Assembly: GCA_004293725.1 (NCBI GenBank)
Contig: REAW01000010.1
Span: forward strand, 62,001-126,000
From: Curvibacter sp.
Lineage (GTDB): Bacteria; Pseudomonadota; Gammaproteobacteria; Burkholderiales; Burkholderiaceae_C
Direction: 5' to 3'
Length of the DNA stretch: 64,000 bases
Of the stretch, positions 13,164 to 63,494 are shown one piece after another. The notes below the pieces were generated by a model. The model did no database searches. It had not been told where the DNA came from and worked only from the letters and a program-made list of their open reading frames with translations. The position numbers and the translations under genes are program-made. How positions within the stretch are numbered: the stretch's first letter is position 1; each line of letters begins with the position of its first letter.

Positions 13164-13775
13164 ATGAATAAACGATTCGCTATGAAAATAATAGCTATTA
13201 GCGCAATATCCATAGGCGCTATGGCTGGTTTGGCTGCGTGTTCAGAGCAGAAGCCTTCTTTCGCCTCGGTGGACATCACCGGAGCCAACTACGCCAAAGA
13301 CTTTGAGCTGACCGACCACAACGGGCAGGTACGGCGGCTGCCCGACTTCAAGGGCAAAGTCGTGGTCATGTTCTTCGGTTTTACGCAGTGTCCCGATGTG
13401 TGCCCCACATCCATGGCCGAATTGGCCGAGATCAAGCAGATGCTGGGCAAAGATGGTGATCGCTTGCAGGGCCTGTTTGTGACTGTGGACCCGGAGCGGG
13501 ATACCCCCGAGGTACTCAAGGCCTACATGGCAAATTTTGACCCGAGTTTCCTCGCGCTCACCACCACCCCCGAGAAACTGGCCATTCTTGCCAAGGACTA
13601 CAAGGTGTACTACAAGAAGGTGCCCGGCAAGACTCCTACCAGTTACACCATGGACCATTCGGCGGGAAGTTACATCTACGACCCGCAAGGCAATCTGCGC
13701 TTGTTCACCCGCTACGGCAGTGGTGCCAAAGTGTTGGCTTCGGACATCGCCCAACTGCTCAAAAGCAGTTCTTGA
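13164..13775 (+). CDS. SCO1/SenC-family copper chaperone, lipoprotein
   Basis: FGFTQCPDVCPTSM CxxxC motif; lipobox LAAC. Confidence 0.94.
   Translation: MNKRFAMKIIAISAISIGAMAGLAACSEQKPSFASVDITGANYAKDFELTDHNGQVRRLPDFKGKVVVMFFGFTQCPDVCPTSMAELAEIKQMLGKDGDRLQGLFVTVDPERDTPEVLKAYMANFDPSFLALTTTPEKLAILAKDYKVYYKKVPGKTPTSYTMDHSAGSYIYDPQGNLRLFTRYGSGAKVLASDIAQLLKSSS
13179..13232 (+). repeat. dispersed ~55-bp repeat, copy R1 (encodes the SCO signal peptide)
   Basis: GCTATGAAAATAATAGCTATTAGCGCAATATCCATAGGCGCTATGGCTGG; ungapped alignment to the other copies. Confidence 0.72.
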
Positions 13776-13817
13776 GCGTTGCGGCGGCCCCGCGGGGCCT
13801 ACCTCCCGCCCCTGGGT

Positions 13818-14807
13818 TTAGTCGATCTTGATGCCTTGATTGGTGATGATGCCGCCCAGCAACTGGGTGTCGGATTTCACACGCAGGCGCAGGCCTTCGG
13901 CGGTGGTTCCTACTACCGTCCAGCCTTGCTGAAACAGTCTTTGCCGCATGTCGGGGCTGCGCGCAATCTCGCTGAACAGCGTGGCCAGTTTGGCTGCAGC
14001 AGTCGGTGGCAAGCTGTTGGGGGCGGCTACCGCGTTCCAGATCTCCAGGTTGAAATTCTTCACCCCGGCTTCTGACAGGCTGGGAATCTCAGGCGCCAGC
14101 GGGCTGCGCACGCTGGCGGTCACACCAATCGCTTTGAGCTTGCCGGCTTTGATTTGGGCGTTGGCCAGTGCCGGGGGCAGTAGGCTGAGCTGCAGGTCAC
14201 CCGCAATCATGGCCGTGGCGACTTGCGGATAGCCAGGGTACGGAACATGCACCGGGGCAATCTTGGCCTGCGACTTGAGCAGTTCCATGCCCAAATGGCC
14301 CACGGTACCCATACCGGGCGTGCCGTAGTTCCAACGGTCCCCCGCAGTGCGCGCGGCCTGCAAAAATGCGGCAGCATCGCTGCCGGGGCCGTTGGCTGGC
14401 GCGGTCAGCACCAAGGGGGATACGCCCAGCAAACTGATAGGCTGCAAATCCTTCAGGGGGTCATAGCTCAGCTTGGGGTTGAGCATCTTGGCAATGGTCA
14501 TGTTGCCGTTGATCATCAGACCGATGGTGTGGTTGTCTGTGGCTTTGGCCACCGCATCTGCAGCAATATTGCCGGCCGCGCCCACTTTGTTCTCCACAAT
14601 CACCGGCTGCCCCAGCGCTTTGGACAGTGGCTCGGCAAATGCCCGTGCGGTCAGGTCCGGCGAGGAGCCCCCAGGAAAGCCTACGATGATGCGAAGCGGC
14701 TTGCTGGGCCAGGCCGCAGCCTCCGGTGTTTTTTGAGCCATTGCGCCTGTGGATACTGCGAAAGTAGCTATAAAAAGTGTAGCAAAAGTAATGCTGCGTC
14801 GTTGCAT
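13818..14807 (-). CDS. Bug-family tripartite tricarboxylate transporter substrate-binding protein
   Basis: WPSKPLRIIVGFPGGSSPDLTARAFAEPLSKALGQPVIVENKVGAAGNIAADAVAKA. Confidence 0.93.
   Translation of the reverse strand: MQRRSITFATLFIATFAVSTGAMAQKTPEAAAWPSKPLRIIVGFPGGSSPDLTARAFAEPLSKALGQPVIVENKVGAAGNIAADAVAKATDNHTIGLMINGNMTIAKMLNPKLSYDPLKDLQPISLLGVSPLVLTAPANGPGSDAAAFLQAARTAGDRWNYGTPGMGTVGHLGMELLKSQAKIAPVHVPYPGYPQVATAMIAGDLQLSLLPPALANAQIKAGKLKAIGVTASVRSPLAPEIPSLSEAGVKNFNLEIWNAVAAPNSLPPTAAAKLATLFSEIARSPDMRQRLFQQGWTVVGTTAEGLRLRVKSDTQLLGGIITNQGIKID
14731..14786 (-). repeat. dispersed ~55-bp repeat, copy R2 (encodes the Bug signal peptide)
   Basis: Reverse strand: TTTGCTACACTTTTTATAGCTACTTTCGCAGTATCCACAGGCGCAATGGCTCA. 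Confidence 0.62.
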
Positions 14808-23237: not shown

Positions 23238-23966
23238 ATGAATAGCCTTGCGCGCATCAGCACCGGTTCGCCGGACCCGCAAGACATCCACGCCGATGTC
23301 TGGCACGCGCACGCGCTGGCCGGTAGTCCGCAGGTGGTGCAGCCTACGGGCGATGCGCTCTTGGACGCGCAGTTGCCCGGCGGTGGCTGGCCCGTGGGGG
23401 CGCTGGTGGAGCTGTTGCAACCTACCGGCGTGCACAGCGAGTGGCGGCTGCTGCTGCCGGCGCTGGCACGCTGTGGACAGGGGCCGGTGGGTTTGGTGGG
23501 GGCGCCCTACTTGCCGTTTGTACCGGCCCTGGCGGCGCTGGGTCTGCGCGCCAGCCGCCTGCTGGCTGTCGGTGTGGGAGGCGCCGCTCAAGACGGCAGG
23601 CTCTGGGCCACCGAGCAACTGTTGCGCTGTGCCGAGGTAGACGCGGTGCTGGCCTGGCTGCCGCAGGTGCGCAGCGACCAACTGCGCCGCCTGCAGATGG
23701 CCGCAGCCGAGCACCACAAGCTGCTGTTTGTGATGCGCCCGGCCGCGCTGCAGGCCGATGCCTCGCCCGCTGCCCTGCGCCTGGTGCTGCAGCCGCAGCC
23801 ACCGGCGCAGATCCCGCGGCTGGACGCGCTGGCAGTGCAGATCGTCAAGCGCCGTGGCCCGCCATTGGCCCAGCCGCTGCAACTGCAGGCGCGTGCGGCC
23901 CGCCTGGCGGTGCTGTTGGCGGCGGAGGGTGCCCATGCACTGGATCGCACTGCGGCCCACGCCTGA
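23238..23966 (+). CDS. imuA: translesion synthesis-associated protein ImuA
   Basis: VWHAHALAGSPQVVQPTGDALLDAQLPGGGWPVGALVELLQP; followed by imuB. Confidence 0.93.
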   Translation: MNSLARISTGSPDPQDIHADVWHAHALAGSPQVVQPTGDALLDAQLPGGGWPVGALVELLQPTGVHSEWRLLLPALARCGQGPVGLVGAPYLPFVPALAALGLRASRLLAVGVGGAAQDGRLWATEQLLRCAEVDAVLAWLPQVRSDQLRRLQMAAAEHHKLLFVMRPAALQADASPAALRLVLQPQPPAQIPRLDALAVQIVKRRGPPLAQPLQLQARAARLAVLLAAEGAHALDRTAAHA

Positions 23967-25308
23967 TGCCGCCACCCCGCCCGAGCCCACCCTGGCCGAT
24001 GTGCACACTGCACTGGCCTGGTGGGCCTTGCGCTTCACGCCGCTGGTGGCGCGGGTAGATGATGCGTTGGTGCTGGAGGTGTCGGGCAGCGAGCGCCTGT
24101 TTGGCGGACGCAGTGCCCTGCTGCAGCAAATTTTTGAGCCAAACAAGCCTCTAGCACCCGTGGAGTATGCGCAAGGCGCTACGTCTTTGATAGCACTTGG
24201 GCGATTGTGGGGCGGGCGCAATGTGATACCCGAGGCACTGTCTGCGCATGTGCTGGCCGCTGCCCGGCCGCACCTGCCCACGCTGGCGCGCCTGGGGGTG
24301 CGCAGCTGGGGTCAACTTCGTGCGTTGCCGCGTGGCGGGTTGGTACGCCGCTTTGGCGCAGAGCTGGTGGACGCGCTGGACCGCGCCTGGGGCCAGCGCC
24401 CCGAGGTCTACCCGTGGCTCACGCTGCCCGAGGTGTTTGACGCACAGCTGGAGCTGGCCGCCAGCGTGGAGTCGGCCCCGGCGCTGCTGTTTGGCGCGCG
24501 CCGCCTGCTGGCGCAGCTGCTGGTGTGGCTGCGCGCACGCCAGCGCGGCGTGCTGGCCCTGGAGCTGCTGTGGGACTTGGATGCACGCCGCGCCAACATC
24601 CTGCACGTGGACGCGCACCACACCGGGGGCCAGCAGGGCCGCCTGGAGTTGCGTACCGCCCAGGCCACGCAAGACATGGCGCACCTGCAACGCATGTTGG
24701 GCGAGCAACTGGCGCGCGTGACCTTGCCCGCGCCCGTGCTCTACCTGCGCCTGCGCAGCCTGCAGACCCAGCCGCTGGCGGGTGAGAGCCACAGCTTGCT
24801 GCCCGAAGACGTGCGCAAAGGCGACAGCCTGCACCAGACGCTGGAACGCTTGGCCGCACGTTTGGGCGCTGCGCAGGTGCAGTGCGCCACCCCGCTGGCC
24901 GACCACCGGCCTGAGCAGATGCAGCGCTGGGCGCCGTGGTGTGCCGATACGTCACCACAAAATGCTATGAAATCAGGAGCTGTTCGCGCAATATCTACCG
25001 GGTCTAGAGGCCTTAAAGACCATGAATTGCACCCGCAGGCCAGCGTGTGGCCCACCTGGCTGTTACCCAGCCCGCAGCGCCTGCCGGTGCGGAACCACTG
25101 CCCACAGTACCAAGGGCCTTTGGCGCTGCTGGTGGGGCCGCAGCGGCTGGAGGCGGGCTGGTTGGACGATGCCCCGGTGCTGCGCGACTACTTCATCGCC
25201 CGCAGCCCGCAGGCCGGGCTGGTGTGGGTGTACCGCGAGCGACTGGCGGGGGAGGGTGCGTTATCCGCGCAAGACGCGCTGTGGTACTTGCACGGCTTGT
25301 ATGCGTGA
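23935..25308 (+). CDS. imuB: ImuB, catalytically atypical Y-family polymerase-like protein
   Basis: MHWIALRPTP...LVARVDDALVLEVSGSERLFGG; overlaps imuA end. Confidence 0.93.
   Translation: MHWIALRPTPDAATPPEPTLADVHTALAWWALRFTPLVARVDDALVLEVSGSERLFGGRSALLQQIFEPNKPLAPVEYAQGATSLIALGRLWGGRNVIPEALSAHVLAAARPHLPTLARLGVRSWGQLRALPRGGLVRRFGAELVDALDRAWGQRPEVYPWLTLPEVFDAQLELAASVESAPALLFGARRLLAQLLVWLRARQRGVLALELLWDLDARRANILHVDAHHTGGQQGRLELRTAQATQDMAHLQRMLGEQLARVTLPAPVLYLRLRSLQTQPLAGESHSLLPEDVRKGDSLHQTLERLAARLGAAQVQCATPLADHRPEQMQRWAPWCADTSPQNAMKSGAVRAISTGSRGLKDHELHPQASVWPTWLLPSPQRLPVRNHCPQYQGPLALLVGPQRLEAGWLDDAPVLRDYFIARSPQAGLVWVYRERLAGEGALSAQDALWYLHGLYA
24139..24195 (-). repeat. dispersed ~55-bp repeat, copy R3 (inside imuB, antisense)
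   Basis: Reverse strand: GCTATCAAAGACGTAGCGCCTTGCGCATACTCCACGGGTGCTAGAGGCTTGTTTGG. Confidence 0.72.
24963..25017 (+). repeat. dispersed ~55-bp repeat, copy R4 (inside imuB, sense)
   Basis: TGCTATGAAATCAGGAGCTGTTCGCGCAATATCTACCGGGTCTAGAGGCCTTAAAG. Confidence 0.75.
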
Positions 25309-28998: not shown

Positions 28999-30060
28999 CT
29001 TCGAGCTGCTGCGCAGCGCACTGGGTGTGCTGCCGAACCACCGTTTGACGGTGCGGCTGAAGTTGGAGGTGTCGGTGTAGCCCAAGCGGCCGGCAATGTC
29101 TTCCACGCTGTCGCTGGTGTGTTGCAACAGCCAGAGCGTGCGGCTTTGCTGGTGCGCATCCAGCAGTTGCTGGAACGACGTGCCTTCCATGGCCAAGCGT
29201 CGCATCAGGGTGCGCTCAGATACTTCACATTGGGTTGCAATATCCGGCAGGCGGGGGTAGGTGCCTTCCGCGGTGTGGCCCAGCAGGCTGGCTACGCGTT
29301 GTGCCATGCTGCTTTGCACCAGCTCAGCCAAGGCTGCGTCGCACTCGTGGCAGGCGGCTGCGTGCGCACGGGCGTCCGCACCCAGCAGCGGCAGGCGCAA
29401 GGCGGCAGCCGGCACATGCAAGGCCAAAGTGGGCTGCCCGAATTGCAGGGGCAAGGGCAGGGCGCGCTCGTAGTGCGCTACCCACGCAGGGCGGGGCAGG
29501 GGCAAGTCCAGCCGCAGGCCCGCAGGCAGGGCGCCCACAGCGGCATGCAACACTCGCACCAGGGCAGCAGCCATGGTGTCGAGCACAAAATTGCGTGCAC
29601 CGCCCCAGTCCAGCCGGTCTATGACTTGCAGGGTGCCACCTTCGGGGCGCATCTGGAACGACCAACTGAAACTGTCTTCCCGCACCGGGCCGTAGCGCCC
29701 CAGCACCATCAGGCAATGTTGCAGGTCTGGCGCGGTGACGGCCGCATAGCCCAGCGGGCCGTGGGCTGACACCGGCGCCCGGTCGCCCAGCTCCAGGCCC
29801 AGCCAGGGTTTGCCGGTGGCTTGCATGGCCGCCTGCACCAGCCGGATCACGGTGTCGCGCGGCAGGCGTTGGTCGGTGGTGAGCAGCTGGTTCCAGTCGA
29901 GTGCGGCGGCGGCCAGTACACGGTCGCTGTCTATCGCGGCTTGCTGCAGCAGCATGCGCAGCAAGCGGGCGTAAATCGGGTGCACCAACGCTTCGGCACC
30001 GGCCGCAGGGCGGGCCTGCGAGGCTGGGTGTTTCCCCTTGATTACGGGCAGAAGCGGCAT
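28990..30060 (-). CDS. AraC-family regulator (Arabinose_bd N-domain type)
   Basis: CEVSERTLMRRLAMEGTSFQQLLDAHQQSRTLWLLQHTSDSVEDIAGRLGYTDTSNFSRTVKRWFGSTPSALR. Confidence 0.92.
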   Translation of the reverse strand: MPLLPVIKGKHPASQARPAAGAEALVHPIYARLLRMLLQQAAIDSDRVLAAAALDWNQLLTTDQRLPRDTVIRLVQAAMQATGKPWLGLELGDRAPVSAHGPLGYAAVTAPDLQHCLMVLGRYGPVREDSFSWSFQMRPEGGTLQVIDRLDWGGARNFVLDTMAAALVRVLHAAVGALPAGLRLDLPLPRPAWVAHYERALPLPLQFGQPTLALHVPAAALRLPLLGADARAHAAACHECDAALAELVQSSMAQRVASLLGHTAEGTYPRLPDIATQCEVSERTLMRRLAMEGTSFQQLLDAHQQSRTLWLLQHTSDSVEDIAGRLGYTDTSNFSRTVKRWFGSTPSALRSSSKLA

Positions 30061-30061
30061 G

Positions 30062-30113
30062 TTTGGCAGTTTAAGACGACCTTTTGGCAGCGCTATCGGT
30101 GGCAACCCTTGCT
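30062..30113. promoter_or_regulatory. Control region copy A between araC and desaturase
   Basis: TTTGGCAG at 30062 and 30083 (21-bp spacing); block GGCAGTTTAAGACGACCTTTTGGCAGCGCTATCGGTGGCAACCC is repeated at 31254. Confidence 0.65.
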
Positions 30114-30184
30114 CGGAGCTTCGACACTGGAGTTTTTGTGAGATGGCTGGCTATTGGGTCAGCTGTATTTGAAAGGAATTGCTC

Positions 30185-31074: not shown

Positions 31075-31249
31075 CTTTTATGGCTTCGATATCCAGCGCG
31101 GCATGATCCCTTCCAAGGCAGGCAACGAGTGGCTGATCAGCACGTCCAGCCTGCTCGCCCAGTTCCAAGCCCAGCAGGGTGTGCCGGTGGCCTGAATGGC
31201 GGGCCTGCGGGGCTGGGTGTTTTCCCTTGGGTGCGGGAAGAATCGGCAT
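31075..31249 (-). pseudogene. remnant of a second araC-type gene (N-terminal fragments)
   Basis: Reverse frame MPILPAPKGKHPAPQARHSGHRHTLLGLELGEQA vs intact AraC MPLLPVIKGKHPASQARPA...MQATGKPWLGLELGDRA; middle deleted, HTH absent. Confidence 0.68.
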
Positions 31250-31251
31250 GG

Positions 31252-31297
31252 TTGGCAGTTTAAGACGATCGTGTGGCGGCGCTATCGGTGGTAACCC
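31252..31297. promoter_or_regulatory. Control region copy B upstream of alkB
   Basis: GGCAGTTTAAGACGATCGTGTGGCGGCGCTATCGGTGGTAACCC, near-identical to copy A at 30065. Confidence 0.65.
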
Positions 31298-31323
31298 AGG
31301 CTAGGGCCTTTCACACTGCAGCC

Positions 31324-33444: not shown

Positions 33445-34146
33445 TTACGCAGCTTTGGATTTGCGGCGACGGGCGATAGTGCCGATCAAGCCCAAGCCAG
33501 CCAGCATCAATGCGTAGGTTTGTGGCTCAGGTACGGCAGTCACCATGTACAACTGGTCTTGGGAGTGGCTGGTGTAGGCAGCGTTGGTGTACAGGTTGAG
33601 CACCCGCACATTGCCCAAACCACTCCAGGCGCCACTGCTGACGGCATTGTTGGCAGCGGTGACCCAGGCGGTTGCCTGCTCATCCGCCAAGCTGCTCAAT
33701 TCACCTTCCAGAAACCAGACAGCCCGTTGCATGGAGTTAGCCAAGCTTTCGGTGCCAGCGTACGCGGCTTGGTTGTTGTAAAACTGGGTGAACAGGTAAG
33801 CGGTTTGGGCGCTCAGAGGGTCACTGCCCGTAGCGCCTCCTGATGCCGTGGTGCTGTTGACAGGTCCAAGTGCATTTTGCGTGGCATCGCTCACGCTCTT
33901 GACGTACAGGTTTTGGGTATACGAACCAAAGTATTCATTCATTTCAAGGCAAAAGCTCTTGAATGAACCTCCAGCGCCAGGACCCGAAATCACCGAGCCG
34001 TTAAATACACCCGCCAGGGAACCGGTGCCATTGCCCAGTTGAACCACACTGCCTGCGGCCACTTGGGCGGATGCAAATTGCGCACCCATCAAGGCGGCGG
34101 TTGCCAGAGCGATGCGGGCGATACGTCCCAAGTTTTTGCTGTTCAT
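33445..34146 (-). CDS. PEP-CTERM sorting domain protein 1
   Basis: Signal peptide plus C-terminal VPEPQTYALMLAGLGLIGTIARRRKSKAA. Confidence 0.93.
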   Translation of the reverse strand: MNSKNLGRIARIALATAALMGAQFASAQVAAGSVVQLGNGTGSLAGVFNGSVISGPGAGGSFKSFCLEMNEYFGSYTQNLYVKSVSDATQNALGPVNSTTASGGATGSDPLSAQTAYLFTQFYNNQAAYAGTESLANSMQRAVWFLEGELSSLADEQATAWVTAANNAVSSGAWSGLGNVRVLNLYTNAAYTSHSQDQLYMVTAVPEPQTYALMLAGLGLIGTIARRRKSKAA

Positions 34147-34361
34147 GGTTATTCCCCTTCGGTTGGTAAGTGATTAATCTGGAGTGGATTGTCACGAGGG
34201 GACTGGGCAACGTACATAGTCCATTCGGACTAGGCGCAGGGTGGGCGCCCGGTTTTATGTGGAAAAAGTCACAGTTCTCCCGGTTTCTCATGGCCCGGGG
34301 CTTGTGGCGCACGGTGCGGAGGGGGGGAGCGGCGGCGGCGTTGTGATGGGTGCAATAGGTA

Positions 34362-34381
34362 TACTGTCTATTTAACCAGTA
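34362..34381. promoter_or_regulatory. LexA-type box upstream of dnaE2
   Basis: TACTGTCTATTTAACCAGTA: CTGT-N8-CCAG, one core mismatch, 41 bp upstream of the dnaE2 ATG. Confidence 0.75.
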
Positions 34382-34422
34382 TAAAGTCTCTTTTCACACC
34401 CACTGCACGGGAGCGCCACGCC

Positions 34423-37400
34423 ATGCTTCCAGACTATGCCGAGTTGTACAGCCTCTCCAGCTTCAGTTTTCAGCGGGGTGCCTCGCAGCCCGAAGAGCTG
34501 GTGCAGCGCGCCCACGCGCTGGGCTATCGCGCGCTGGCCCTGACCGACGAATGTTCGGTGGCCGGTGTGGTGCGCGCCCACGTGGAGGCCAAGCGCCTGG
34601 GCTTGCAGTTGCTGCCCGGGGCCGAGTTCGTAGTGGCTCTACCGGAGGGGGCGCATTTCACACTGGTGGTGTTGCCGCACTCGCTGTCGGGCTGGGGCAA
34701 TCTGTGTGAATTCATCACCCAGGCTCGCATGGCGGCGCACAAGGGGCACTACCACTGCAGTTGGGCGACCTCAGCATGGGCGCTGCTGGCAGATTGTGAA
34801 GTGTTGTTGGTCTTTCCATTTGCTATCAATATAGAAGCTGCATGCGCAATATCCATAAGGGCTAGAGGCCTATTTGGCGTGCATTGTTGGCTGGCCGCCT
34901 CGGCCGGGTTGGTGGCGGGGGATGCGCTGCAGCGGGTGCGGGTTCAGCAGATAGCAGCGCTTGGCGGCCTGCCGGTGCTGGCCACGGGCCAGGTGTGCAT
35001 GCATGTGCGCTCGCGCAAGCCACTGCACGATGTGCTGACCGCCGTGCGCCTGGGCCAGCCGGTGTCGGCCTGCGGCTTTGCGCTGCAAGCCAATGCAGAA
35101 GGCCACCTGCGTTCGCGTGGTCGACTGGCGGCATTGTTCCCGCCCGAGTGGCTGGCCAACACGCTTGTGGTGGCGCAGCGTTGCCGCTTTCATGTGGGTG
35201 AGCTGGCCTACCACTACCCGCTAGAGGCCGTGCTGCCCGGTCAAACCCCTGCCCAGACGCTGCGCCACCATGTCAATGAGGGCGCACAGACGCGGTACCC
35301 GCACGGAATGCCGAAGGACATTGCGGCCCGGGTGGAGCACGAGCTGGCGCTGATTGCCGAGTTGCGCTTTGAGATGTATTTCCTCACGGTGCATGACATC
35401 GTGCGCTTTGCGCGCGGCCAGCACATTCTTTGCCAGGGGCGGGGTTCGGCGGCCAACTCGGTGGTGTGTTACTGCCTGCATATCACCGAGGCCAACCCCC
35501 ATGAGACCTCGTTGCTGTTTGAGCGGTTTATCAGCCGCGAACGCAACGAGCCGCCTGACATCGATGTGGACTTTGAACACCAGCGCCGCGAGGAGGTGAT
35601 TCAGTACATCTACACCAAATACGGCCGCAACCGCGCCGCCATTGCCGCCACGGTGACCAGCTACCGCCCGCGCAGCGCATTGCGCGATGTGGGCCGCGCG
35701 CTGGCGATTCCCGAGGAGTTGATCGCCTCCATGGCCAAAGAGCACCCCGGCATGTACAGCCGGGAGGTGCTTGTCGAGCGGCTGCAGGATGCTATAAAAA
35801 AGATAGCTGCTTGCGCATACTCTGCCGGGGCTGGGGTCGTTTTTCCTTCTGAGCGCCGTATGCAACTATGGCTGACACTGAGCACCACGCTGCAGGGTTT
35901 TCCGCGCCACCTGGGCCAGCATGTGGGCGGTTTTGTGCTCACCCAAGGTCCGCTCACCCGCTTGGTACCGGTGGAAAACGCCGCCATGCCAGACCGCTCC
36001 ATCATTCAGTGGGACAAGGACGATCTGGCTGCGGTGGGGCTGATGAAGGTGGATGTGCTGGCGCTGGGCATGCTCAGCGCCATTCGCCGCTGTTTGGCAT
36101 TGGTGACGCAGCGCCATGGCCTGCCCGCTCCGCTGCGCATGCAAGACATTGCGCGCGAAGACCTGGCCACGTTTGACATGATTTGTGCTGCCGACACCGT
36201 GGGCGTGTTCCAGATTGAAAGCCGCGCCCAGATGAGCATGCTGCCGCGCCTGCGGCCCCGCTGTTATTACGACCTGGTGGTCGAAGTGGCCATCGTGCGG
36301 CCGGGGCCCATCCAGGGCGGCATGGTGCATCCGTATCTCAAGGCGCGCAAAGACCCTGAAGCCGCCAAATCGCCCTATCCGGCGTTGCAAAAGGCGCTGG
36401 AGCGCACCCATGGCGTGCCCATTTTTCAGGAGCAGGTGATGCAGATCGCCGTGCTGGCAGCCGGCTTCACGCCCGGTGAGGCCGATGCGCTGCGCCGCTC
36501 CATGGCCGCTTGGAAGCGCCATGGCAATGTGAGCCAGTACCGTGACCGGTTGGTAGGCGGGATGGTGGAGCGGGGTTATCCGCCGGATTTTTCCGAGGCC
36601 ATCTTCAAGCAGATGGAGGGCTTCGGTGAATATGGCTTCCCCGAGAGCCATGCGGCCAGCTTTGCACTCTTGGTCTATATCAGCAGCTACCTCAAATGCC
36701 ACGAACCGGCGTGCTTTCTGGCCGCTTTGCTCAACAGCCAGCCGCTCGGCTTTTATGGCCCCGCGCAACTGGTGCAAGACGCGCAGCGCCATGGCGTGAC
36801 GGTGCTGGCGGTGGATGTGATGCACAGCGAGTGGGATTGCACCCTTGACCCCTCCGGTTCAAACACGGTGCGCTTGGGTTTGCGGCTGGTTGCCCAGCTT
36901 TCCCAAGCGGTGGCAGAACGCGTGACCACACAGCGCCAGCAAGCGCCGTTCACCAGCACACAAGACCTGGCGCTGCGCTGCCAGCTCGACGCGGGTGACC
37001 TCAAGGCCTTGGCCAGTGCCGATGCATTGCAGTCGCTCAGCGGCCACCGCCGCCAGCAGGTGTGGGAAGCCTCCGCGCTGCTCCCCGCACCCGCGCTGTT
37101 GCGAGGTGTGCCCATAGATGAAGAGGACCTGGTCCTGCCCGCGGCGGCCGAGGGCGAGGAGGTGACTTTTGACTACGCCGCAGTGGGGCTCACGTTGCGC
37201 TCCCACCCCTTGCTGCTACTGCGTGAGCAGCTATCAAAAATGAAGCTTCTGACGGCCGTGCAGATGTGCGACTACCCCAGTGGTCGGTTGGTGCGGGCTT
37301 GCGGCATCGTCACGGCTCGCCAGCGGCCCCAAACGGCAAAGGGCGTGGTGTTCGTGACGCTGGAAGACGAGAGTGGCAGCGTCAACGTGATTGTGTGGAA

Positions 37401-37578
37401 AAGTGTGCGTGAACAGTTTCGCGACGTGGTCTACCGCGCCCGGCTCATGGCCGTGTATGGGGTGTGGCAGCGCGATGAAGACAGTGGTGGCCAGGTCCGC
37501 CATGTGGTGGCCAAACGGCTGGTCGACCTCACCCCCTTGCTGGGCGACCTGGCTACCGCAAGCCGCGACTTCCATTGA
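34423..37578 (+). CDS. dnaE2: error-prone DNA polymerase III alpha subunit DnaE2/ImuC
   Basis: 1051 aa; YAELYSLSSFSFQRGASQPEELVQRA, CQGRGSAANSVVCY, RNEPPDIDVDFEHQRREEVIQYIY. Confidence 0.96.
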   Translation: MLPDYAELYSLSSFSFQRGASQPEELVQRAHALGYRALALTDECSVAGVVRAHVEAKRLGLQLLPGAEFVVALPEGAHFTLVVLPHSLSGWGNLCEFITQARMAAHKGHYHCSWATSAWALLADCEVLLVFPFAINIEAACAISIRARGLFGVHCWLAASAGLVAGDALQRVRVQQIAALGGLPVLATGQVCMHVRSRKPLHDVLTAVRLGQPVSACGFALQANAEGHLRSRGRLAALFPPEWLANTLVVAQRCRFHVGELAYHYPLEAVLPGQTPAQTLRHHVNEGAQTRYPHGMPKDIAARVEHELALIAELRFEMYFLTVHDIVRFARGQHILCQGRGSAANSVVCYCLHITEANPHETSLLFERFISRERNEPPDIDVDFEHQRREEVIQYIYTKYGRNRAAIAATVTSYRPRSALRDVGRALAIPEELIASMAKEHPGMYSREVLVERLQDAIKKIAACAYSAGAGVVFPSERRMQLWLTLSTTLQGFPRHLGQHVGGFVLTQGPLTRLVPVENAAMPDRSIIQWDKDDLAAVGLMKVDVLALGMLSAIRRCLALVTQRHGLPAPLRMQDIAREDLATFDMICAADTVGVFQIESRAQMSMLPRLRPRCYYDLVVEVAIVRPGPIQGGMVHPYLKARKDPEAAKSPYPALQKALERTHGVPIFQEQVMQIAVLAAGFTPGEADALRRSMAAWKRHGNVSQYRDRLVGGMVERGYPPDFSEAIFKQMEGFGEYGFPESHAASFALLVYISSYLKCHEPACFLAALLNSQPLGFYGPAQLVQDAQRHGVTVLAVDVMHSEWDCTLDPSGSNTVRLGLRLVAQLSQAVAERVTTQRQQAPFTSTQDLALRCQLDAGDLKALASADALQSLSGHRRQQVWEASALLPAPALLRGVPIDEEDLVLPAAAEGEEVTFDYAAVGLTLRSHPLLLLREQLSKMKLLTAVQMCDYPSGRLVRACGIVTARQRPQTAKGVVFVTLEDESGSVNVIVWKSVREQFRDVVYRARLMAVYGVWQRDEDSGGQVRHVVAKRLVDLTPLLGDLATASRDFH
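34819..34876 (+). repeat. dispersed ~55-bp repeat, copy R5 (inside dnaE2)
   Basis: TTTGCTATCAATATAGAAGCTGCATGCGCAATATCCATAAGGGCTAGAGGCCTATTTGG. Confidence 0.78.
35790..35845 (+). repeat. dispersed ~55-bp repeat, copy R6 (inside dnaE2)
   Basis: TGCTATAAAAAAGATAGCTGCTTGCGCATACTCTGCCGGGGCTGGGGTCGTTTTTC. Confidence 0.72.
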
Positions 37579-40527: not shown

Positions 40528-41148
40528 TTAAGCTTGCTTGGCTTTGCGACGGCGTGCGATGGCACCCATCAGGCCCAGGCCAGCCAGCATCATGGCGTAG
40601 GTTTCGGGCTCTGGAACCGCTGTCACCATGGCTGATTTGATGCCCCAACCTTCGTCGCTCAAAGGTTGTCCACCGTAATTCAAAGCACCTGGCGCAGAGT
40701 AGGCGAAGGTGAAAGTATTGACACCCGCCAACAAGTTAAAGCGCAACCCGCTGATGGTGGTGGTACCACCGTTCCAGCCAATGGCGGTTCCGGGATTCAC
40801 GCCATTTTGGTTCACAGTGACCGCTGTAGCGCCACCAAACGACGTGTCCGATGTACCGCCGCCACCCAAATTGAAGGAACCTGTAATGGCAGAACCGCCA
40901 TTAATAGACAAGGACAACACGTCGCGGTAGGAGTTGTTGCCATCCAGCGACCTGAAGCCTTGAACCACAAAGTCCAAAGTTGCCATGGCGTCAGCTACCG
41001 ATGCATTCACCGTCGCTACAAAAGAACCTGGGTTTGCAAGCGGGCCAGATTGCAGACCCACCAAGCTGTACGTTGCAGCCTGTGCGGAGCCCAAGCCCAG
41101 CGCCAAAGTTGCTGCTAGTGCCGCTACTAATTTTTTAAAAGACATCAA
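40528..41148 (-). CDS. PEP-CTERM sorting domain protein 2
   Basis: Signal peptide; C-terminal VPEPETYAMMLAGLGLMGAIARRRKAKQA. Confidence 0.94.
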   Translation of the reverse strand: MMSFKKLVAALAATLALGLGSAQAATYSLVGLQSGPLANPGSFVATVNASVADAMATLDFVVQGFRSLDGNNSYRDVLSLSINGGSAITGSFNLGGGGTSDTSFGGATAVTVNQNGVNPGTAIGWNGGTTTISGLRFNLLAGVNTFTFAYSAPGALNYGGQPLSDEGWGIKSAMVTAVPEPETYAMMLAGLGLMGAIARRRKAKQA

Positions 41149-46452: not shown

Positions 46453-47265
46453 TTAAGCAGTACCGCGCTGTTTGAGATGCCGCTCAAGGCGGCGCAGCAG
46501 CAGCGACAGGGTAATGGTAAGCATCAGGTACAGCACCGCCACCACGTTGTAGGTTTCCACGGTCAGGAAGGAGCTGGACGCATACAGCTTGCCCAGCTGG
46601 GTGATGTCGCTCACGCCCAGCACCGATACCAGCGAAGAGTCTTTCACCATGGCAATGAAGTCATTGCCCAGCACTGGTAACACGCGGCGAAAGGCCTGAG
46701 GCCACACCACCAGCCGGAACGTGAGCCAGCGGTTCAGGCCGATAGCTTGGGCCGCTTCAATCTGCGCGCGTTCCACACTTTGCAAGCCCGCGCGGAACAC
46801 CTCGGCCAGAAAGGCGCTGTAGGCCAGCGCCAGCGCCACAATGCCGCGCACGGTGTTCGATACATCGCGCACCTGAATATCTGGCAGCCACTCTTTGGCG
46901 ATCCAGCCCTCACAAGCCCACTGGTACAGGTTCACCACCGCGGGCGCGCCCACAAAAGTCACATACAGCAAGATCACCAGCGCAGGCAGGCCGCGTATCA
47001 CCTCAATGTAGAAGCGCGCACTCTGGCGCAGCCACACCTGTTTGGAGCGGCTGGCCAGTGCCAGCAACAAACCGATGCTGGCGGCCAGCGTGAAGCTGAT
47101 GACCGCCACATAGACAGTGGTCCACAGACCTTCGGCCAGCGTCTGGAAGATGAAGGCATAGCGCCCGTCGGCAATGGCCAGCGCCACAAAAGCAGCGCTG
47201 ATCAGGCCCAGGGCGATCAGCCAGTACGGGCGCTCGGACGACTCCGAGTCAACAAGAATCTGCAC
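46453..47265 (-). CDS. amino acid ABC transporter permease
   Basis: HisM-type EAAQAIGLNRWLTFRLVVWPQAFRRVLPVLGNDFIAMVKDSSLVSVLG. Confidence 0.94.
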   Translation of the reverse strand: MQILVDSESSERPYWLIALGLISAAFVALAIADGRYAFIFQTLAEGLWTTVYVAVISFTLAASIGLLLALASRSKQVWLRQSARFYIEVIRGLPALVILLYVTFVGAPAVVNLYQWACEGWIAKEWLPDIQVRDVSNTVRGIVALALAYSAFLAEVFRAGLQSVERAQIEAAQAIGLNRWLTFRLVVWPQAFRRVLPVLGNDFIAMVKDSSLVSVLGVSDITQLGKLYASSSFLTVETYNVVAVLYLMLTITLSLLLRRLERHLKQRGTA

Positions 47266-47281
47266 GAGGCAGCAATCTTGC

Positions 47282-48088
47282 TTATTGATTCAGTTTGTAG
47301 TCCACAAACCATTTCTGGTCGAACTTCTTGATCGTGCCGTCGGCCTTCATCTGCTTGAGCGCTGCATTCACAGGCTTCACCAGGTCCGAGCCCTTTTTGT
47401 AAATGAAGCCGAACTCTTCGCGCCCCATGGGCTTGCCCACCACCTTGTAGGTGTCGGGGAATGCCTTGACATAGCCTTGGGAAGAAACGCCATCGGTCAG
47501 CACGGTGTCCACGTCACCGGCTTTGAGCGCTTGCATGGACAGGCCGAAGGTCTCGTACAGCTTGATGCGTGGGTTCTTCTCGTTGCCGTCCAGCACTTCG
47601 TACACCGCGGTGTAGAAATTGGTGGTGCCACTTTGGGCGCCTACCAGCAGCTTGGCGTTGGCCTTGAAGGCCTTTGCATCGGTAAAGCGCTTCTCATTAG
47701 CGCGCACCATCATGAACTGCTCAGACACCATATAGGCGTCGGAAAAGTCCACCTGTTTCTTGCGGTCGTCCTTGATGGTGATGCCGTCCATGCCCACGTC
47801 GAACTGGCCTTTGCGCACGGCTTCGATCATGGTGTCCCAGCTGGTGAGCTTCCAGTCCACCTTGGCGTTGAGGCGCTTGGCAATCTCGTTGAACACGTCG
47901 TATTCCCAGCCCACGCTCTGGCCGGTTTTGGGGTCTTTGAAGTTCAGGGGCGGGTAGGCGTTTTCGGTCACGGCCACGATGGTGCGGCCCTTCAGGTCGG
48001 GCAGGGCTGCATCGGCTGCGTGCGCGGCGGAAACAGACAGAGCGGCCAGTACGGCACTGGCAATGACGAGGCGACGATGGATTGACAT
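47282..48088 (-). CDS. amino acid ABC transporter substrate-binding protein
   Basis: SBP family 3: YPPLNFKDPKTGQSVGWEYDVFNEIAKRLN. Confidence 0.94.
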   Translation of the reverse strand: MSIHRRLVIASAVLAALSVSAAHAADAALPDLKGRTIVAVTENAYPPLNFKDPKTGQSVGWEYDVFNEIAKRLNAKVDWKLTSWDTMIEAVRKGQFDVGMDGITIKDDRKKQVDFSDAYMVSEQFMMVRANEKRFTDAKAFKANAKLLVGAQSGTTNFYTAVYEVLDGNEKNPRIKLYETFGLSMQALKAGDVDTVLTDGVSSQGYVKAFPDTYKVVGKPMGREEFGFIYKKGSDLVKPVNAALKQMKADGTIKKFDQKWFVDYKLNQ

Positions 48089-48120
48089 GGCAAAGGCTCC
48101 AGTGAGTGCAAAAATACAGT

Positions 48121-48180
48121 ATATGGGCAGTTGGCGCCCGTGGGATCTGCGCAAACAGCTACAAAACTTATAGCGAAAAA
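48121..48180 (-). repeat. dispersed ~55-bp repeat, copy R7 (overlaps 3' end of the FAD oxidoreductase gene)
   Basis: Reverse strand: TTTTTCGCTATAAGTTTTGTAGCTGTTTGCGCAGATCCCACGGGCGCCAACTGCCCATAT. Confidence 0.68.
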
Positions 48181-49589
48181 ATCTTTCCGGGGTTCAGGAT
48201 GTTGTGCGGGTCCAGCGCCCGTTTGATGGTTCGCATCATGTCCACCGCACCGTTGCCAGTCTCTTCCACCAGAAAACCCTGTTTATGCAGGCCCACACCG
48301 TGTTCGCCGGTGCAAGTGCCGCCCAGCTGTAGAGCGCGCGATACCAATTGGTGGTTCAGCTTTTCGGCCAGTGCGCGCTCTGCCGGTATGGCTGGGTCAA
48401 TCAGGTATCCCATATGAAAGTTGCCGTCACCCACGTGCCCAACCAAAAAATAAGGCAAACCAGCTTCCTGTGCTTCCGTCACACTGTCCAGCAACGCATC
48501 TGCCAAATGGGAAATCGGCACGCAGGCGTCCGTGGTGATGGCTTTGCAGCCAGGGCGCGACTGCACACCTGCAAAGTAGGCGTTGTGCCGTGCGGTCCAA
48601 AGACGGGTGCGTTCTTCGGGGGTTTGCGCCCACTCGAATGCGGCGCCGCCAAATTCGGCGGCAATATCTTGCACCGTCTGTACTTGCTCCTTGACACCAT
48701 CGGGCGAACCGTGGAACTCCATCAACAGCATGGCGCCTTCGCGCAGGGTGAGCTTGGAGTGCGCGTTGACCATCCGGATAGTGTTGGCGTCCAGCAGTTC
48801 GCAGCGCGCAATCGGTATGCCCAATTGAATGATCTGGATGGTGGTGTTCACCGCATCGGCCAGGCTGTTGAACGAGCAGGTGGCTGCCATTACAGCCTCG
48901 GGCAAGGGGTAAAGCTTCACCGTGACTTCAGTGATCACGCCCAGCGTACCTTCACTACCGACCAATAGGCGTGTCAAGTCGTAGCCAGCGCTGCTTTTCT
49001 TGGCCCGCGTACCGGTGCGGATAATTTCTCCGCTCGCGGTTACCACTTCCAGCGCCAATACGTTTTCCCGCATGGTCCCGTAGCGCACGGCATTGGTACC
49101 GCTGGCCCGGGTGGCGCTCATGCCGCCAATCGTTGCATCGGCCCCCGGATCAATGGGAAAGAAGAGGCCTGTCGACTTGATCTCGTCATTGAGCTGCTTG
49201 CGTGTCACACCGGGCTGCACCGTGACCGTCAGGTCTTCGGCGTTGATCGCCAGGATTTGGTTCATGCGACTCACATCGAGGCTGAGGCCGCCTTGTACGG
49301 CCAGTAAATGCCCTTCCAATGAGGAACCCACGCCAAACGGAATCACCGGCACCCGGTACTGGGCAGCCAGCGCCACCGCATCACTGACATCTGCCGTGCT
49401 GTGGGCAAACACCACGGCGGCTGGCGGCGGAATATCAAACGCGGATTCGTCGCGCCCATGTTGCTCGCGCACCACCCATGCGGTGGAAAACTGCTCTCCA
49501 AACCGAGCGCCTAACGCTACCAAAAACTCCGCAGGAATGATGCGCTGCGTTACTTCCGGCAACGAGGGGGGGAGGTAAGGGGCGTTCAT
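48168..49589 (-). CDS. FAD-binding oxidoreductase (D-lactate dehydrogenase/GlcD type)
   Basis: VIPFGVGSSLEGHLLAVQGGLSLDVSRMNQIL; GTCTGEHGVGLHKQGFL. Confidence 0.94.
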   Translation of the reverse strand: MNAPYLPPSLPEVTQRIIPAEFLVALGARFGEQFSTAWVVREQHGRDESAFDIPPPAAVVFAHSTADVSDAVALAAQYRVPVIPFGVGSSLEGHLLAVQGGLSLDVSRMNQILAINAEDLTVTVQPGVTRKQLNDEIKSTGLFFPIDPGADATIGGMSATRASGTNAVRYGTMRENVLALEVVTASGEIIRTGTRAKKSSAGYDLTRLLVGSEGTLGVITEVTVKLYPLPEAVMAATCSFNSLADAVNTTIQIIQLGIPIARCELLDANTIRMVNAHSKLTLREGAMLLMEFHGSPDGVKEQVQTVQDIAAEFGGAAFEWAQTPEERTRLWTARHNAYFAGVQSRPGCKAITTDACVPISHLADALLDSVTEAQEAGLPYFLVGHVGDGNFHMGYLIDPAIPAERALAEKLNHQLVSRALQLGGTCTGEHGVGLHKQGFLVEETGNGAVDMMRTIKRALDPHNILNPGKIFSL

Positions 49590-49697
49590 GACAGGTCTCC
49601 GGTCGGGGTGTTACGAAACATGGATGTTTTCCATTCTATGAACAAGCGGTGTTTCGATGCCTGACGGAAAACTGGCAGCGAATTGGACGGTAAGTTT

Positions 49698-52276: not shown

Positions 52277-55200
52277 TCAGACTTCTTCGCCCGTGCGCCG
52301 GGCGCGCATAGCCGAGCGCCGCGCCATCGCGTCGTTGCGGGCCTCGGCCCGGTCGTTGACCGCTTCGGTCGCAGAAGCTGCCTGCGCTGCAGCTACAGGG
52401 GCTTTCGGTTTATCGTCCAGATGCTTGGCCAAGGCAGCGAGCGTTGGAAACCGGAAGATGTCGGTAATTGACAACTTGGTGGCTCCCAGCGCTTGGCGAA
52501 TTTCCCGGTGGGCTTGCACGGCCAGAAGGCTGTGGCCGCCAAGGGAAAAGAAGTTGTCGCGCGCTCCCACTTTGGGCACACCCAATATGCGGGCCCAAAT
52601 GGCGGCAAGTTGCGACTCGATATCGCTTTGAGGCGCGACGAAAGTTTCGGTTTGCGGCGCGCTAGCCGAAGGCGCGGGCAGTGCCTTGCGGTCTACCTTG
52701 CGGTTGGGGGTAAGGGGGAAACTGTCCAAGGTCACAAAATGCGCCGGGATCATGTGTTCTGGCAAAACCGCTGCGAGTTCGGCGCGCAGGCTCACTTCAT
52801 GCGCGCTGCCCGACAGGTAGGCCACCAAACGCAAATCGCCAGGGCTGTCTTCACGCGCCAGCACAACGGCTTGCTTGACACCAGGCTGGGCTTCCAGCAC
52901 CGCTTCAATTTCACCAAGTTCAATACGATAGCCGCGCAACTTCACTTGGAAGTCTGCGCGCCCCAGGAAATCGAGCTTGCCATCCGCACGCCACCGCACT
53001 AGGTCGCCGGTTCTGTACATCCGCGCACCCCAAGGGCAGGCGCGTTCTGTGGTCACGAAAGTATCCGGCTTGAAGCGCTCCTCGGTCAGATCGGGGCGCT
53101 GCCAATAGCCACGCGTCACGCCGTCGCCCCCTATCCACAACTCGCCCGCAGTGCCGGGAGGCACCGGGTTCATTGCCTCGTCCAGCACATACATCTGCTG
53201 GTTAGCCAACGGGGTGCCAATGTTGGAGATCGGCTCAACCTCGCCGACCTCTTCTACCGAGGACCAGATGGTGGTCTCGGTCGGGCCATACATGTTCAGG
53301 ATGCGCGCTCTAGAGGCGTTGCGCAGATCGTTCACCAAGGCTCCAGGCAGTGCCTCGCCGCCCACCATCAGGGTCTTTACGCTTGAGAGTGCCATGCGGG
53401 CTTCATCGTTCATGGCGATCATGCGGGCCATCGAAGGGGTGCACTGCAGATGCGTCACCCCGTGGCGCAGAATCTGGGCCGCAATGGAGTAATCCCCCTC
53501 CTGCGCGCCACCTCCCGAGTTGGCGCGCTTCACCACCTCAGCCAAGGGGTACAGCGCCTCTAGCACACGCTCGGGCGCAATGCCATAGTCCACCAAGCAA
53601 GCCACCTCGCCCACGCCAATGCGTTTTAGCTGCTCAACCCGGGCAAGGGCGTCTTCAACGGTGCCAAACAGCCCCGAGTCTTCAAAGTAGCGCTGGAACG
53701 CGAAATCGAGGATCGCGTCATTTTCCTCGGCCGTCAGTGTGCGCAGGTCGATGTCCATCGGATTTTCGACGCCCGCAGGTTTCTTGAAAGCCGGGAACGC
53801 CCAGGCGTATTGCTTGACCAAGCCAACTGCGGCGCCAAGGTAAGCCTTCATCGGGCCTTCGGCTACGCGGCGCACCTGCTCACGGTCCCGGCCAATGTAG
53901 GTGTGCAGCATCAGTGTGACGGTGAACTGGGCCGGGTCATGGCCTGCCTTGCGCAGGGCCTCGTGATAAATGATGATTTTCTTGGCCACCTCGTCAATCG
54001 ATTGACCCAGCAAATGCGTCAGCACGTTGGCGCCAAGCTCACCGGCCTCGCGCCAGGTGTCGGGGTTGCCCGCGGTGGTGACCCATAGTTGCAACTCTTT
54101 GGACACGGGGCGTGGCTGGGTCTTCACAGTAAACGGAGTGCCATCGGCTTTCAGAAAATCCACTCCCTCGCCGCGCCACAAACGCCGAACCTGATCGGCG
54201 GCGGCGTACATGGCGGCCTTGTTCTTGGGCGGCGTATTTTCGGGGCGCAGCACAAAGTCTTCTGGCTGCCAGCCCGAGGCAACCGCAATGCCTGCGCGCC
54301 CGTTGGTCAGGTTGTCAATAACCGCCCATTCCTCTGCAATGCGTGCCGGGTGGTGCAAGGGCACCACGCACGAGCCCGCGCGCACAGCGATGTTTTTGGT
54401 CACGGCCGCCACAGCGGCTCCGGTTACTGCCGGGTTCGGATAAGGGCCACCGAAGGCATGAAAGTGGCGCTCGGGCGTCCAGACGGCACAAAAACCATGG
54501 GTATCGGCAAACTTGGCACCTTCCAAGAGAAGTTCGTATTTCTTCGGGCCCTGCCCGTCGTCATTGCCCCAGTAGTAGATGGAGAAATCCATCTTCTGCG
54601 GGTTGACAAAGCTGCCCGATGACACGAGTGCACGGTTTTCATCCGACGAAATAACCACCTTGAAGCCGCGTGCCAGGGTCCAGAAAAGTTCCAACACCGA
54701 GATGTCGAACGACAGCGAAGTAACAGCCAGCCAGACACCCGGCTCCGCGCCGATACGTTGGTCCATGCCGGTAAAGAAGTTGGCAACGTTGCGGTGCTCC
54801 ACCATCACGCCCTTGGGCCGTCCGGTGGAGCCCGAGGTGTAGATCATGTAGGCGATGTCCTGCGGCTGCACGTCGCACACCGGGTTGGCTGAAGGTGCGG
54901 CGTGGATACGGCCATCGCTTCCCAACTCCAGCACCTGCGCGCTATGGGCGGGCAAAGCGATGCCCGACTGCGTTACCACCACCGGGCACGCGCTGTCTTC
55001 AATAAACAACGCGATGCGTTCAGCCGGATAGGCCGGATCCATGGGCACATAGGCTCCACCCGCTTTGTGGATGCCCAAAGCGCCGATCAAGAGATCCAGG
55101 CTGCGGCGAGTGCAAAGACCCACCAGCGTGCCAGGGGTAACACCCATTCCGATGAGCGTGTGAGCCACCTTGTTGGCCCGGGCATTGAGTGCGGCATAGG

Positions 55201-56818
55201 TCAGGCTTTCGGCTTCACAGACCAAAGCCACTGCCTCCGGTGTCTTGGCAACTTGTGCTTCAAACGCCTGGTGAATGGTCGTGGGGTTGCGCAGCGCGGC
55301 AGTTGCGTTCCAGCCGTGCAAAACCTGCGTGCGTTCGGCCTGGGTCAGGGCCGAGACACTGGCCAAGGGCGTGTCGCCGGGTAGTTGGGCCAATTCGCTA
55401 ACCACATGGCGTATGCGGGCGGCGAGCGCTTGGGCCTGGGGCGCAGAGAGCCTTGCGGCGTCGTAGTAAAAAGCCGAGGGCGATAGCGTGACCACACTGC
55501 CCGCCACCGCAGCGTCTCCAAGCGCCAACTGCGGAACGGTCAGGCCTTGCAGTGCGCTGTCGCGCGTCATCAGGTCTAGCGCAAAGGCGGGTGTAGCGCG
55601 GGCTTTGGTTAACGCTTCGGTGAGGCTGGCCTTGGCTTCGGTGATGGACCCCTCGGCGTTCACGGCAATCGGCACCCAGTAGCTTAAGTAGCCTGGCAAG
55701 CCTTCGCCTCCCAGTGCAAAATCCACCGCGGGTTGGCCAAGCGCACGTGCGCCGGCCAAGGCAAGGCTAGCAAAATCACCCGAGAGCGGCAGGCTTTGCC
55801 AATCGGCCTGGGTGGCAGAGCCTGCCCCCGCAACCTGTGCGGGGTTCATTCGCAGCAGTGCTCGGCGCAAAGCAGCTTCGCCCGGCACGACGGCGGCAAG
55901 CGCGTCAGAGAGTTGCTGCGCCTGTGCTGCGTCAAGCAATGGCAGGCTAGCATCGGTGATCGTCGAGGGGCACACCGGACCGCCTTTGATCTGGCAGCTC
56001 AAACGGTTTAGGCGCACCGCACCTGTGCCGCAGGCCACCACCAGCCCTTCTGGCGTGGCCGAAAACACGGTGCCCGCAGCCCCCGACCCCTCTGCGGGTT
56101 CCGCTGCGCCAACGTTTAGCACGCGCGATGCGGTGGCGATTTTTGCGGTGGAAAGTGGGTTCCAGTAGCGCCCATGGTCTAGTGCGCACACCCGGCGGAT
56201 CACCTCTGGTGCAGGCTTGGAGAAATCAATACGCCCCATGGCGCTGGGGCGATCATGGCGCATGTGAATGCTGCGCAGCGAAAGATCTTGGCGCTGGCGG
56301 CGAATACCATTTTCCAACTGGCCGACCAGGGCCGGGAAAGATTCCATACCCGCTTCGAAGCAGCGGGTGTTCAGCGTCAGCGCGGTGTCATTCGCAGTAA
56401 TGTCAAAAAGGCGTTGCTCAAGAATGTCGCCCTCATCCACCCCACCTTCCATCAAATGCCAGGTGATGCCGTGATGCGCCTCTCCCGCCAGAATGGCCCA
56501 AACCGGGGCATTCAGACCGGCATGGCGTGGCAAGGGACCATCATGAAAATTTACGGCGCCGCTCGAAGCCATGGCCAGCACTTGGTCGGGTATGACCGAG
56601 AGGTTCGCAACGGACAAAAGCCATTCAACCGATAGCCCGGCAAGCGCAGCCCAATCGCCCGCCGCCTCCACGCGCAACCCTTTGGACAGCGCCCATTTCT
56701 TTACATCCGCGTTGCGGGTGACGACGGCAGCAATGCGGTGGCCACGCTCTAGCAAGATCTGGCCACATTGGCTGGTCAGAGATTCATTGCCGATCAAAAG
56801 CGCAGAAAAAATGGTCAT
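52277..56818 (-). CDS. NRPS-type protein: formyltransferase - truncated C-like region - A domain with inserted luciferase-like monooxygenase - PCP
   Basis: Formyltransferase [22 protein letters not shown]...[10 protein letters not shown] motifs [66 protein letters not shown]...[31 protein letters not shown]. Confidence 0.95.
53535..54595 (-). other. MupA/Atu3671-type FMN-dependent luciferase-like monooxygenase domain inserted in the A domain (approximate bounds)
   Basis: [50 protein letters not shown]...[26 protein letters not shown], between A4 ([10 protein letters not shown]) and A5 (NMYGPTET). Confidence 0.9.
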
Positions 56819-56906
56819 TTGAAACTCCTAGGTCCTATCGGGTAGCTGCTCAGCCATTGGCAGGCAGATTTTGTTTGCAAGTCTTGTGTACCAAAGACGG
56901 TTCAGT

Positions 56907-63323: not shown

Positions 63324-63494
63324 TCTTCTTCCCTGAATAGATGCAAAACCCGAAGCAAATTGGCCTTATCAACTTCTAGTGGCCGTCTTGATGTTACAAA
63401 ATCCTTTTGACGGGTCTTGCCCAACGTATCAATCGCCGATTCCCATAGGCAGGAATGCAGGCTCTCACAAACAAGGGAAAAGCCTGGAGATCCG

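Follow-up and report, generated by a model that had tools for sequence, protein, structure and literature searches.

We analysed a 64-kb stretch of DNA, referred to below as the window, from a Rhodoferax-type genome (2.95 Mb, 59 contigs, 82.65% complete). In this window the genes of two exported proteins, sco and bug, carry R1 and R2, respectively, which are copies of one degenerate repeat of approximately 58 bp. The features of the locus are listed below.

13164..13775, plus strand: sco, SCO1/SenC-type lipoprotein (Pfam PF02630, E = 3e-46; lipobox LAAC in the translation)
13164-13241, plus strand: SCO signal peptide, part of sco
13172-13235, plus strand: R1, motif copy at the core of the SCO signal peptide (48.7 bits)
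13818..14807, minus strand: bug, TctC-type solute-binding protein (Pfam PF03401, E = 8e-51)
about 14736-14807, minus strand: Bug signal peptide, part of bug
14727-14790, minus strand: R2, motif copy at the core of the Bug signal peptide (45.9 bits)

R1 and R2 lie approximately 1.5 kb apart on opposite strands. R1 makes up codons 4-24 of the SCO signal peptide MNKRFAMKIIAISAISIGAMAGLAAC and R2 most of the Bug signal peptide MQRRSITFATLFIATFAVSTGAMA; at both cores the same-strand reading is (F/N)-A-(I/L)-x-x-I-A-A-C-A-x-S-x-G-A. The first-pass annotation had proposed that one repeat forms both signal peptides, and we were able to confirm this. When R1 and R2 were excluded in building the weight matrix, the two copies scored 48.7 and 45.9 bits, whereas the maximum found in 4 million positions of matched random sequence was 5.0 bits. 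Chance resemblance was thus ruled out, and the host proteins were assigned by Pfam to SCO1-SenC and TctC. The further claim that R1 and R2 are more A+T-rich and hydrophobic than the copies of the mutasome genes was also correct. Their G+C content was 42% and 39%, compared with 44-56% for the copies in dnaE2 and in ORF 23734-25305, and the GRAVY values of the encoded segments were 1.84 and 1.59 (mean 0.83, sd 0.62, for 145 copies open in that frame). At the orthologous positions the motif was conserved in 6/6 syntenic relatives for both sites, and R2 was conserved in further bug orthologues too.

R1 contains a second in-frame ATG at window position 13182 (GCTATGAAAATAATA), which would shorten the SCO signal peptide to MKIIAISAISIGAMAGLAAC. 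Several other motif copies likewise supply a start codon (L196, L223, L002, L239).

The other copies detected in the window were as follows.

24138..24201, minus strand: copy in ORF 23734-25305, opposite-strand reading (53.3 bits; conserved in 5/5 relatives compared)
24957..25020, plus strand: copy in ORF 23734-25305 (56.2 bits; conserved in 5/5 relatives compared)
34815..34878, plus strand: copy in dnaE2, aa 194-215 (68.4 bits; replaces an equally long segment of the orthologues)
35784..35847, plus strand: copy in dnaE2, aa 517-538 (58.9 bits; site of variable length, lengths differ in relatives)
37190..37253, minus strand: weak copy in dnaE2, aa 986-1007 (37.0 bits with the small matrix, 27.3 bits with the genome-wide matrix)
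48118..48181, minus strand: copy mostly in the spacer of the convergent ORFs 47162-48082 and 48171-49610 (50.6 bits)

The weak copy in dnaE2 was conserved in relatives at 26-37 bits. Including it, dnaE2 holds three copies, while ORF 23734-25305 holds two, as does mutL elsewhere in the genome (L250). A bias to genome-maintenance genes has been reported for uptake sequences, and the multiple copies in these three genes could reflect a similar bias.

Form, abundance and placement of the motif

The motif follows the pattern GCTAY-N8-RTAGCTGCTTGCGCA-N3-TCCAC-N2-GGGCTAGAGGCC-N-ATTTG. The consensus of 165 sampled copies was nnnanttGCTAtnnatTtngTAGCTGCTtGCGCAnanTccAcgnGgGCTAgaGGCcnaTTTgnc, with approximately 57 bits over 64 positions; the information was spread across about 58 bp, the strongest block was TAGCTGCTTGCGCA and the mean G+C content was 47%. 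This sample covered approximately 0.5 Mb, overlapping stretches included, and leans to strong copies, because it was seeded by an exact 14-mer and by the top hits of the model. Using a sequence model made from 27 copies, we found at least 150 copies in the source genome. Five syntenic genomes contained 8-11 copies in every 60-80 kb, from which we extrapolate a full number near 400. This corresponds to one copy per approximately 7-8 kb, and many related Comamonadaceae are alike in this respect. Matches were present in 58 of the 151 sampled genomes of the family, with at least 35 in many of the 58, and were absent from the remainder of the sample; the motif was abundant in about a third of the sampled genomes. 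None would be expected by chance, so the copies are strongly over-represented genome-wide, both in genes and in spacers. The strict motif matched 13 of 2.9 million viral contigs, which is too few to interpret.

We did not find any match of the motif to Rfam covariance models at the gathering threshold, and a known structured RNA family was therefore rejected. The folding energies of the copies were within the range of shuffled DNA, and the motif showed no stable hairpin and no long terminal inverted repeats; a hairpin or palindromic element was rejected on the lack of folding excess. On one complete chromosome the approximately 25 strongest copies seemed to be polar with respect to the replichores, but among all 150 copies the polarity was not significant (45/31 vs 33/41, p = 0.10), and we discarded a replication-oriented motif. 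The spacing of the copies on one complete chromosome was random (CV 1.0). In the open-licence literature we found no published description of the motif, of its 14-base core or of such repeats in these genera.

A repeat of similar size, BRE, occurs in Betaproteobacteria including Rhodoferax, Polaromonas and Acidovorax, and also lies within coding sequences (Hot et al. 2011, PMC3110155). It is approximately 90 bp long and often tandem, with a mean G+C content of 69% in Bordetella and 4 copies in R. ferrireducens (PMC3110155). Compared by its description, BRE differs from the motif (about 58 bp, 47% G+C, dispersed, hundreds of copies) in length, composition and arrangement, and we rejected the identity of the two.

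About half of the sampled copies were located in genes or at gene starts, as judged by a simple codon score and not by a gene finder. Genic copies nearly always used one of two frames, the same-strand frame x-A-(I/M)-x-x-(I/V)-A-A-C-A-x-S-x-G-A and a single frame of the opposite strand, both of which are stop-free in the consensus. Signal peptides were assigned by eye from the sequence. In addition to SCO and Bug, at least seven exported proteins of the source genome carry the motif in the signal peptide, in the same-strand frame.

LolA: MKKFATVFIAACAINASAG
DUF4124-like protein: MHTAKFALVFIAACAISTGAMAQ
SLT transglycosylase: MKNIAACAILMGAIASFHAKA
MltB: FFALIFIAVCAISTSSAAQ
DUF1775 protein: MKNAIQIVAACAVSIGSTAAFGH
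FlgH: MKKIAACATG..., the motif covering only the start of the signal peptide
Small lipoprotein: MKLGAVRAAFMLAAATFLLMGC

Two further copies lie in signal-peptide regions in the opposite-strand reading, one in a dihaem cytochrome c (MKKMPLARVQYAQTATKWIATLALAG..., L165 1495-2028) and one in an exported protein (ALAVNAQPALNSIANQ, L240 1510-2139).

Cytosolic proteins carry the motif at their starts (a CysN-like GTPase, DUF934, Sua5) and internally (MutL, YggS, NadD, DnaE2 and others), and such copies, together with those in spacers or on the opposite strand, form the majority. Therefore signal peptides are just one host among several, though a favoured-looking one. Their cores are permissive, because translation of the motif in its same-strand frame, which has no stops, yields a stretch of Ala, Ile, Leu, Ser and Gly.

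Orthologous sites with and without the motif

We compared seven genomes (the source genome, G050, G059, G007, G034, G044 and G001). The flanks of a copy led to a copy in the target genome in 261 of 278 comparisons, and across the genus the sites are close to fixation. Over 139 orthologous pairs, identity was 91.2% in the high-information columns, 84.5% in the flanks and 68.9% in the low-information columns; at the sco copy the values were 84.9%, 78.5% and 38.6%, respectively. Motif columns exceeded flanks at all seven window sites, and the p-values of this comparison are not literal, because the pairs share ancestry. The bases that define the motif are held, while the remaining bases of a copy drift.

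The SCO signal peptide has 26 residues and the pattern M-x-K-R-x-A-L-K-x-I-A-x-x-A-x-x-x-G-A-x-x-L-x-A-C, which is kept in the orthologues with or without the DNA motif. The signal peptides of motif-free relatives, MNKRQTLQRLAACALLAGSAGFLAAC (-28 bits), MNKRIALKRVAACALYAGAGGWLAAC and MRKRDALRFIALSAVTAGTAGLLAAC, have the same length and pattern, with the same residues written in ordinary G+C-rich codons. In the motif-bearing sco sequences Ile10 was encoded by ATA in 79/80 cases (13/315 Ile codons of mature SCO) and Ala11 by GCT in 72/82 cases (90/1,410 Ala codons). These sequences were chosen by motif score, so the codon figures describe the imprint of the motif and are no independent proof of it.

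The motif was present in sco, at 25-55 bits, in 15/16 motif-rich genomes (the exception was G063), whereas sco scored below -25 bits in 14/14 motif-free genomes (Mann-Whitney p = 1.7e-5 for sco score against genome motif load, relatedness not corrected). The 14 motif-free genomes are mostly distant and their SCO signal peptides differ in length too; therefore a comparison of closer relatives weighs more. Among Acidovorax and Paracidovorax genomes, the sco motif was present, at 29-60 bits, in A. facilis, A. defluvii and A. delafieldii, each with no fewer than 150 copies in its genome, and in P. valerianellae (59 copies). In P. anthurii (4 copies), P. konjaci (1), Acidovorax sp. Root219 (1), Comamonadaceae 2FH (1) and G014 (0) sco scored from 10 down to -28 bits, and the same signal-peptide pattern was kept. 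This demonstrates that the signal peptide of sco is older than the motif, or independent of it, and that its pattern survives the loss of the motif.

The copies in coding sequences that we tested arose by substitution in place and not by insertion. The first motif copy of dnaE2 (34234-37575) encodes FAINIEAACAISIRARGLFG, with no change in length relative to motif-free orthologues (NLPVEQACAIATAARTRYG) and class-level outgroups. The YggS copy aligned without gaps to E. coli YggS (PDB 1w8g), the MutL copy, within the conserved GFRGEAL region, showed no insertion against solved bacterial MutL, and neither did the Sua5 copy against solved threonylcarbamoyl-AMP synthase. Insertion as a general origin was ruled out at these four coding copies, where the segments are equally long. 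The alignment of the NadD copy contained a two-residue gap.

An extra motif copy was observed in the sco-bug spacer of two relatives (L031 3624-3687, L033 3623-3686), and the window is without it. This copy comes together with approximately 80 bp, and both are missing in a third relative (L032). Insertion or deletion may thus account for some of the spacer copies. The difference is the only direct hint of insertion, and it could equally be a deletion.

The first-pass annotation had described the repeat as a portable secretion signal. The same-strand reading does form the signal-peptide cores of SCO and Bug, and the motif also lies in the signal peptides of the seven or more further exported proteins, but the portability was not upheld. 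The comparison of sco orthologues had been set beforehand as the refuting test, and its outcome was against this claim: in motif-free relatives the SCO signal peptide persists, unchanged in length and pattern, without DNA similarity to the repeat. Moreover, since cytosolic copies fill conserved segments without insertion, the repeat is not an arriving module that confers export.

Explanations for the motif

We infer that the motif is kept by a process acting on DNA. The explanation that we consider best, and to which we give about an even chance, is that a DNA motif is maintained by a drive like that of uptake sequences, its copies having evolved in place and the proteins accommodating it. Competent cells would preferentially take up DNA carrying the motif and then recombine it in, and mutations towards the motif would accumulate wherever the encoded protein tolerates them. 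The cores of signal peptides would tolerate it well enough, as its frame gives Ala, Ile, Leu, Ser and Gly. The secretion role is thereby reversed in causation, with proteins adapting to the motif and the motif being no export module. We favour this drive on two grounds: known uptake sequences are scattered through genes and spacers with preferred reading frames (PMC2346458), and uptake in Verminephrobacter eiseniae and Acidovorax shows signs of sequence selectivity. Natural transformation has been reported for three Comamonadaceae, V. eiseniae and two species of Acidovorax; their uptake behaves as selective and in V. eiseniae proceeds via type IV pili, and the accessible part of the account names no uptake sequence for the family (PMC4212676). 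A stronger version, which we put forward tentatively as somewhat less probable than an even chance, is that Comamonadaceae use the motif as their uptake signal. It would be the first long (approximately 58 bp, multi-block) uptake sequence and a driver that rewrites conserved protein segments, with a core shared by the signal peptides of many unrelated exported proteins as one result.

The main rival, in our opinion fairly unlikely, is a maintained protein-binding site, involved in nucleoid organisation, segregation, recombination or repair, which evolves in place without any role in uptake. That copies are maintained at orthologous sites and that their motif columns are constrained would fit any function at the DNA level, and there are copies in the repair genes dnaE2 and mutL. 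KOPS-like and Chi-like signals show replichore polarity, unlike the motif with its non-significant polarity (p = 0.10) and random spacing (CV 1.0), although this counts only against motifs that guide replication. By our own calculation approximately 14-15 bits are needed for a few hundred sites on both strands of about 6 Mb. The 57 bits of the motif are far beyond this need and therefore point to drive or copying and not to simple recognition. A further rival is a miniature mobile element of old origin, comparable to Rickettsia palindromic elements or YPAL/RU-2, whose copies would have inserted into genes, some of them being domesticated as signal peptides. The many dispersed copies in genes and spacers agree with such an element, as does the length difference of about 80 bp between relatives at the spacer copy. 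Like the motif, these elements and ERIC are short repeats found in frame in many unrelated genes. Rickettsia palindromic elements are in-frame insertions, and protein-coding MITEs in general are palindromic insertions that add residues, whereas the motif, without stable hairpin or long terminal inverted repeats and folding no better than shuffled DNA, replaces residues in place. There is a precedent for repeat-made signal peptides in Yersinia, where YPAL/RU-2, as an insertion, partly forms that of YPO1552 (PMC2229807). However, none of the coding copies tested was inserted and the sites are nearly fixed across the genus, and we regard a mobile element as improbable.

Two other explanations are far weaker. 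A portable secretion signal, whose copies spread by conferring export on the genes they entered, could account for the total of at least nine exported proteins with the motif in the signal peptide. Nevertheless, motif-free SCO orthologues keep their signal peptide and most copies are not in signal peptides of the same strand. Signal peptides are typical of the whole families of SCO, LolA, MltB, FlgH and TctC, and the family model of LolA aligns from residue 3. We consider this explanation very improbable. Convergence by chance, in which hydrophobic signal-peptide codons come to resemble the repeat, would agree with the identical peptide pattern of motif-free SCO signal peptides. Against it stand the scores of R1 and R2 relative to the chance maximum, the scores of signal peptides that are motif-poor but share the amino-acid pattern (10 down to -28 bits) and the rare codons ATA and GCT held at motif positions, which leave it a negligible probability.

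The uptake-like drive can be compared with the DUS of Neisseriaceae and the USS of Pasteurellaceae. Like these, the motif has hundreds of dispersed copies in genes and spacers, a preferred frame and persistence across a family. Substitution in place, as in DUS and USS, was seen in DnaE2, YggS, MutL and Sua5, and the sco-bug spacer copy was ambiguous. Transformation in Comamonadaceae is pilus-dependent and selective, as with DUS and USS (PMC4212676), and the motif is a candidate for a role in it. However, DUS and USS have 10-12 bp, and the motif, with its 58 bp and 57 bits, lacks a short core of 9-12 bp. It is also rarer, with hundreds of copies compared with about 1,500 DUS in Neisseria (PMC2346458). 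DNA of other Acidovorax species failed to transform Acidovorax temperans (PMC4212676), although three of these species have motif-rich genomes; therefore the motif is not the whole explanation of that specificity. The length, the information content, the lower copy number, the A. temperans result and the lack of a sco copy in G063 all speak against the uptake reading. ComEC was found in 31/31 genomes, motif-rich and motif-free alike, so it does not discriminate between them, and a phyletic link of the motif to competence genes was not supported.

The motif offers a concrete and widespread candidate uptake sequence for a family in which selective uptake has been reported (PMC4212676). As its presence splits close relatives (more than 150 vs 0-4 copies), the question of uptake is directly testable. 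The results also indicate that a motif at the DNA level overwrites protein sequence in place and has left its mark on the signal peptides of SCO, Bug, LolA, MltB, FlgH and others without being a secretion module. Similarity of signal peptides in these genomes should not be taken as evidence of homology or transfer.

We also observed other repeats and a biosynthetic region in the window. The PEP-CTERM sorting domains (Pfam PF07589) of two proteins are encoded by 93-nt direct repeats with 81% identity (33455-33547 and 40538-40630), which flank dnaE2. A 124-nt direct repeat with 83% identity (30009-30132 and 31198-31321) lies near genes of an AraC-type regulator and a fatty-acid desaturase. Positions 52280-63365 of the minus strand encode a hybrid assembly line, in which a type I PKS (KS-AT-KR-DH-ACP-TE domains) lies next to a protein that combines formyltransferase, adenylation, luciferase-like monooxygenase and carrier domains.
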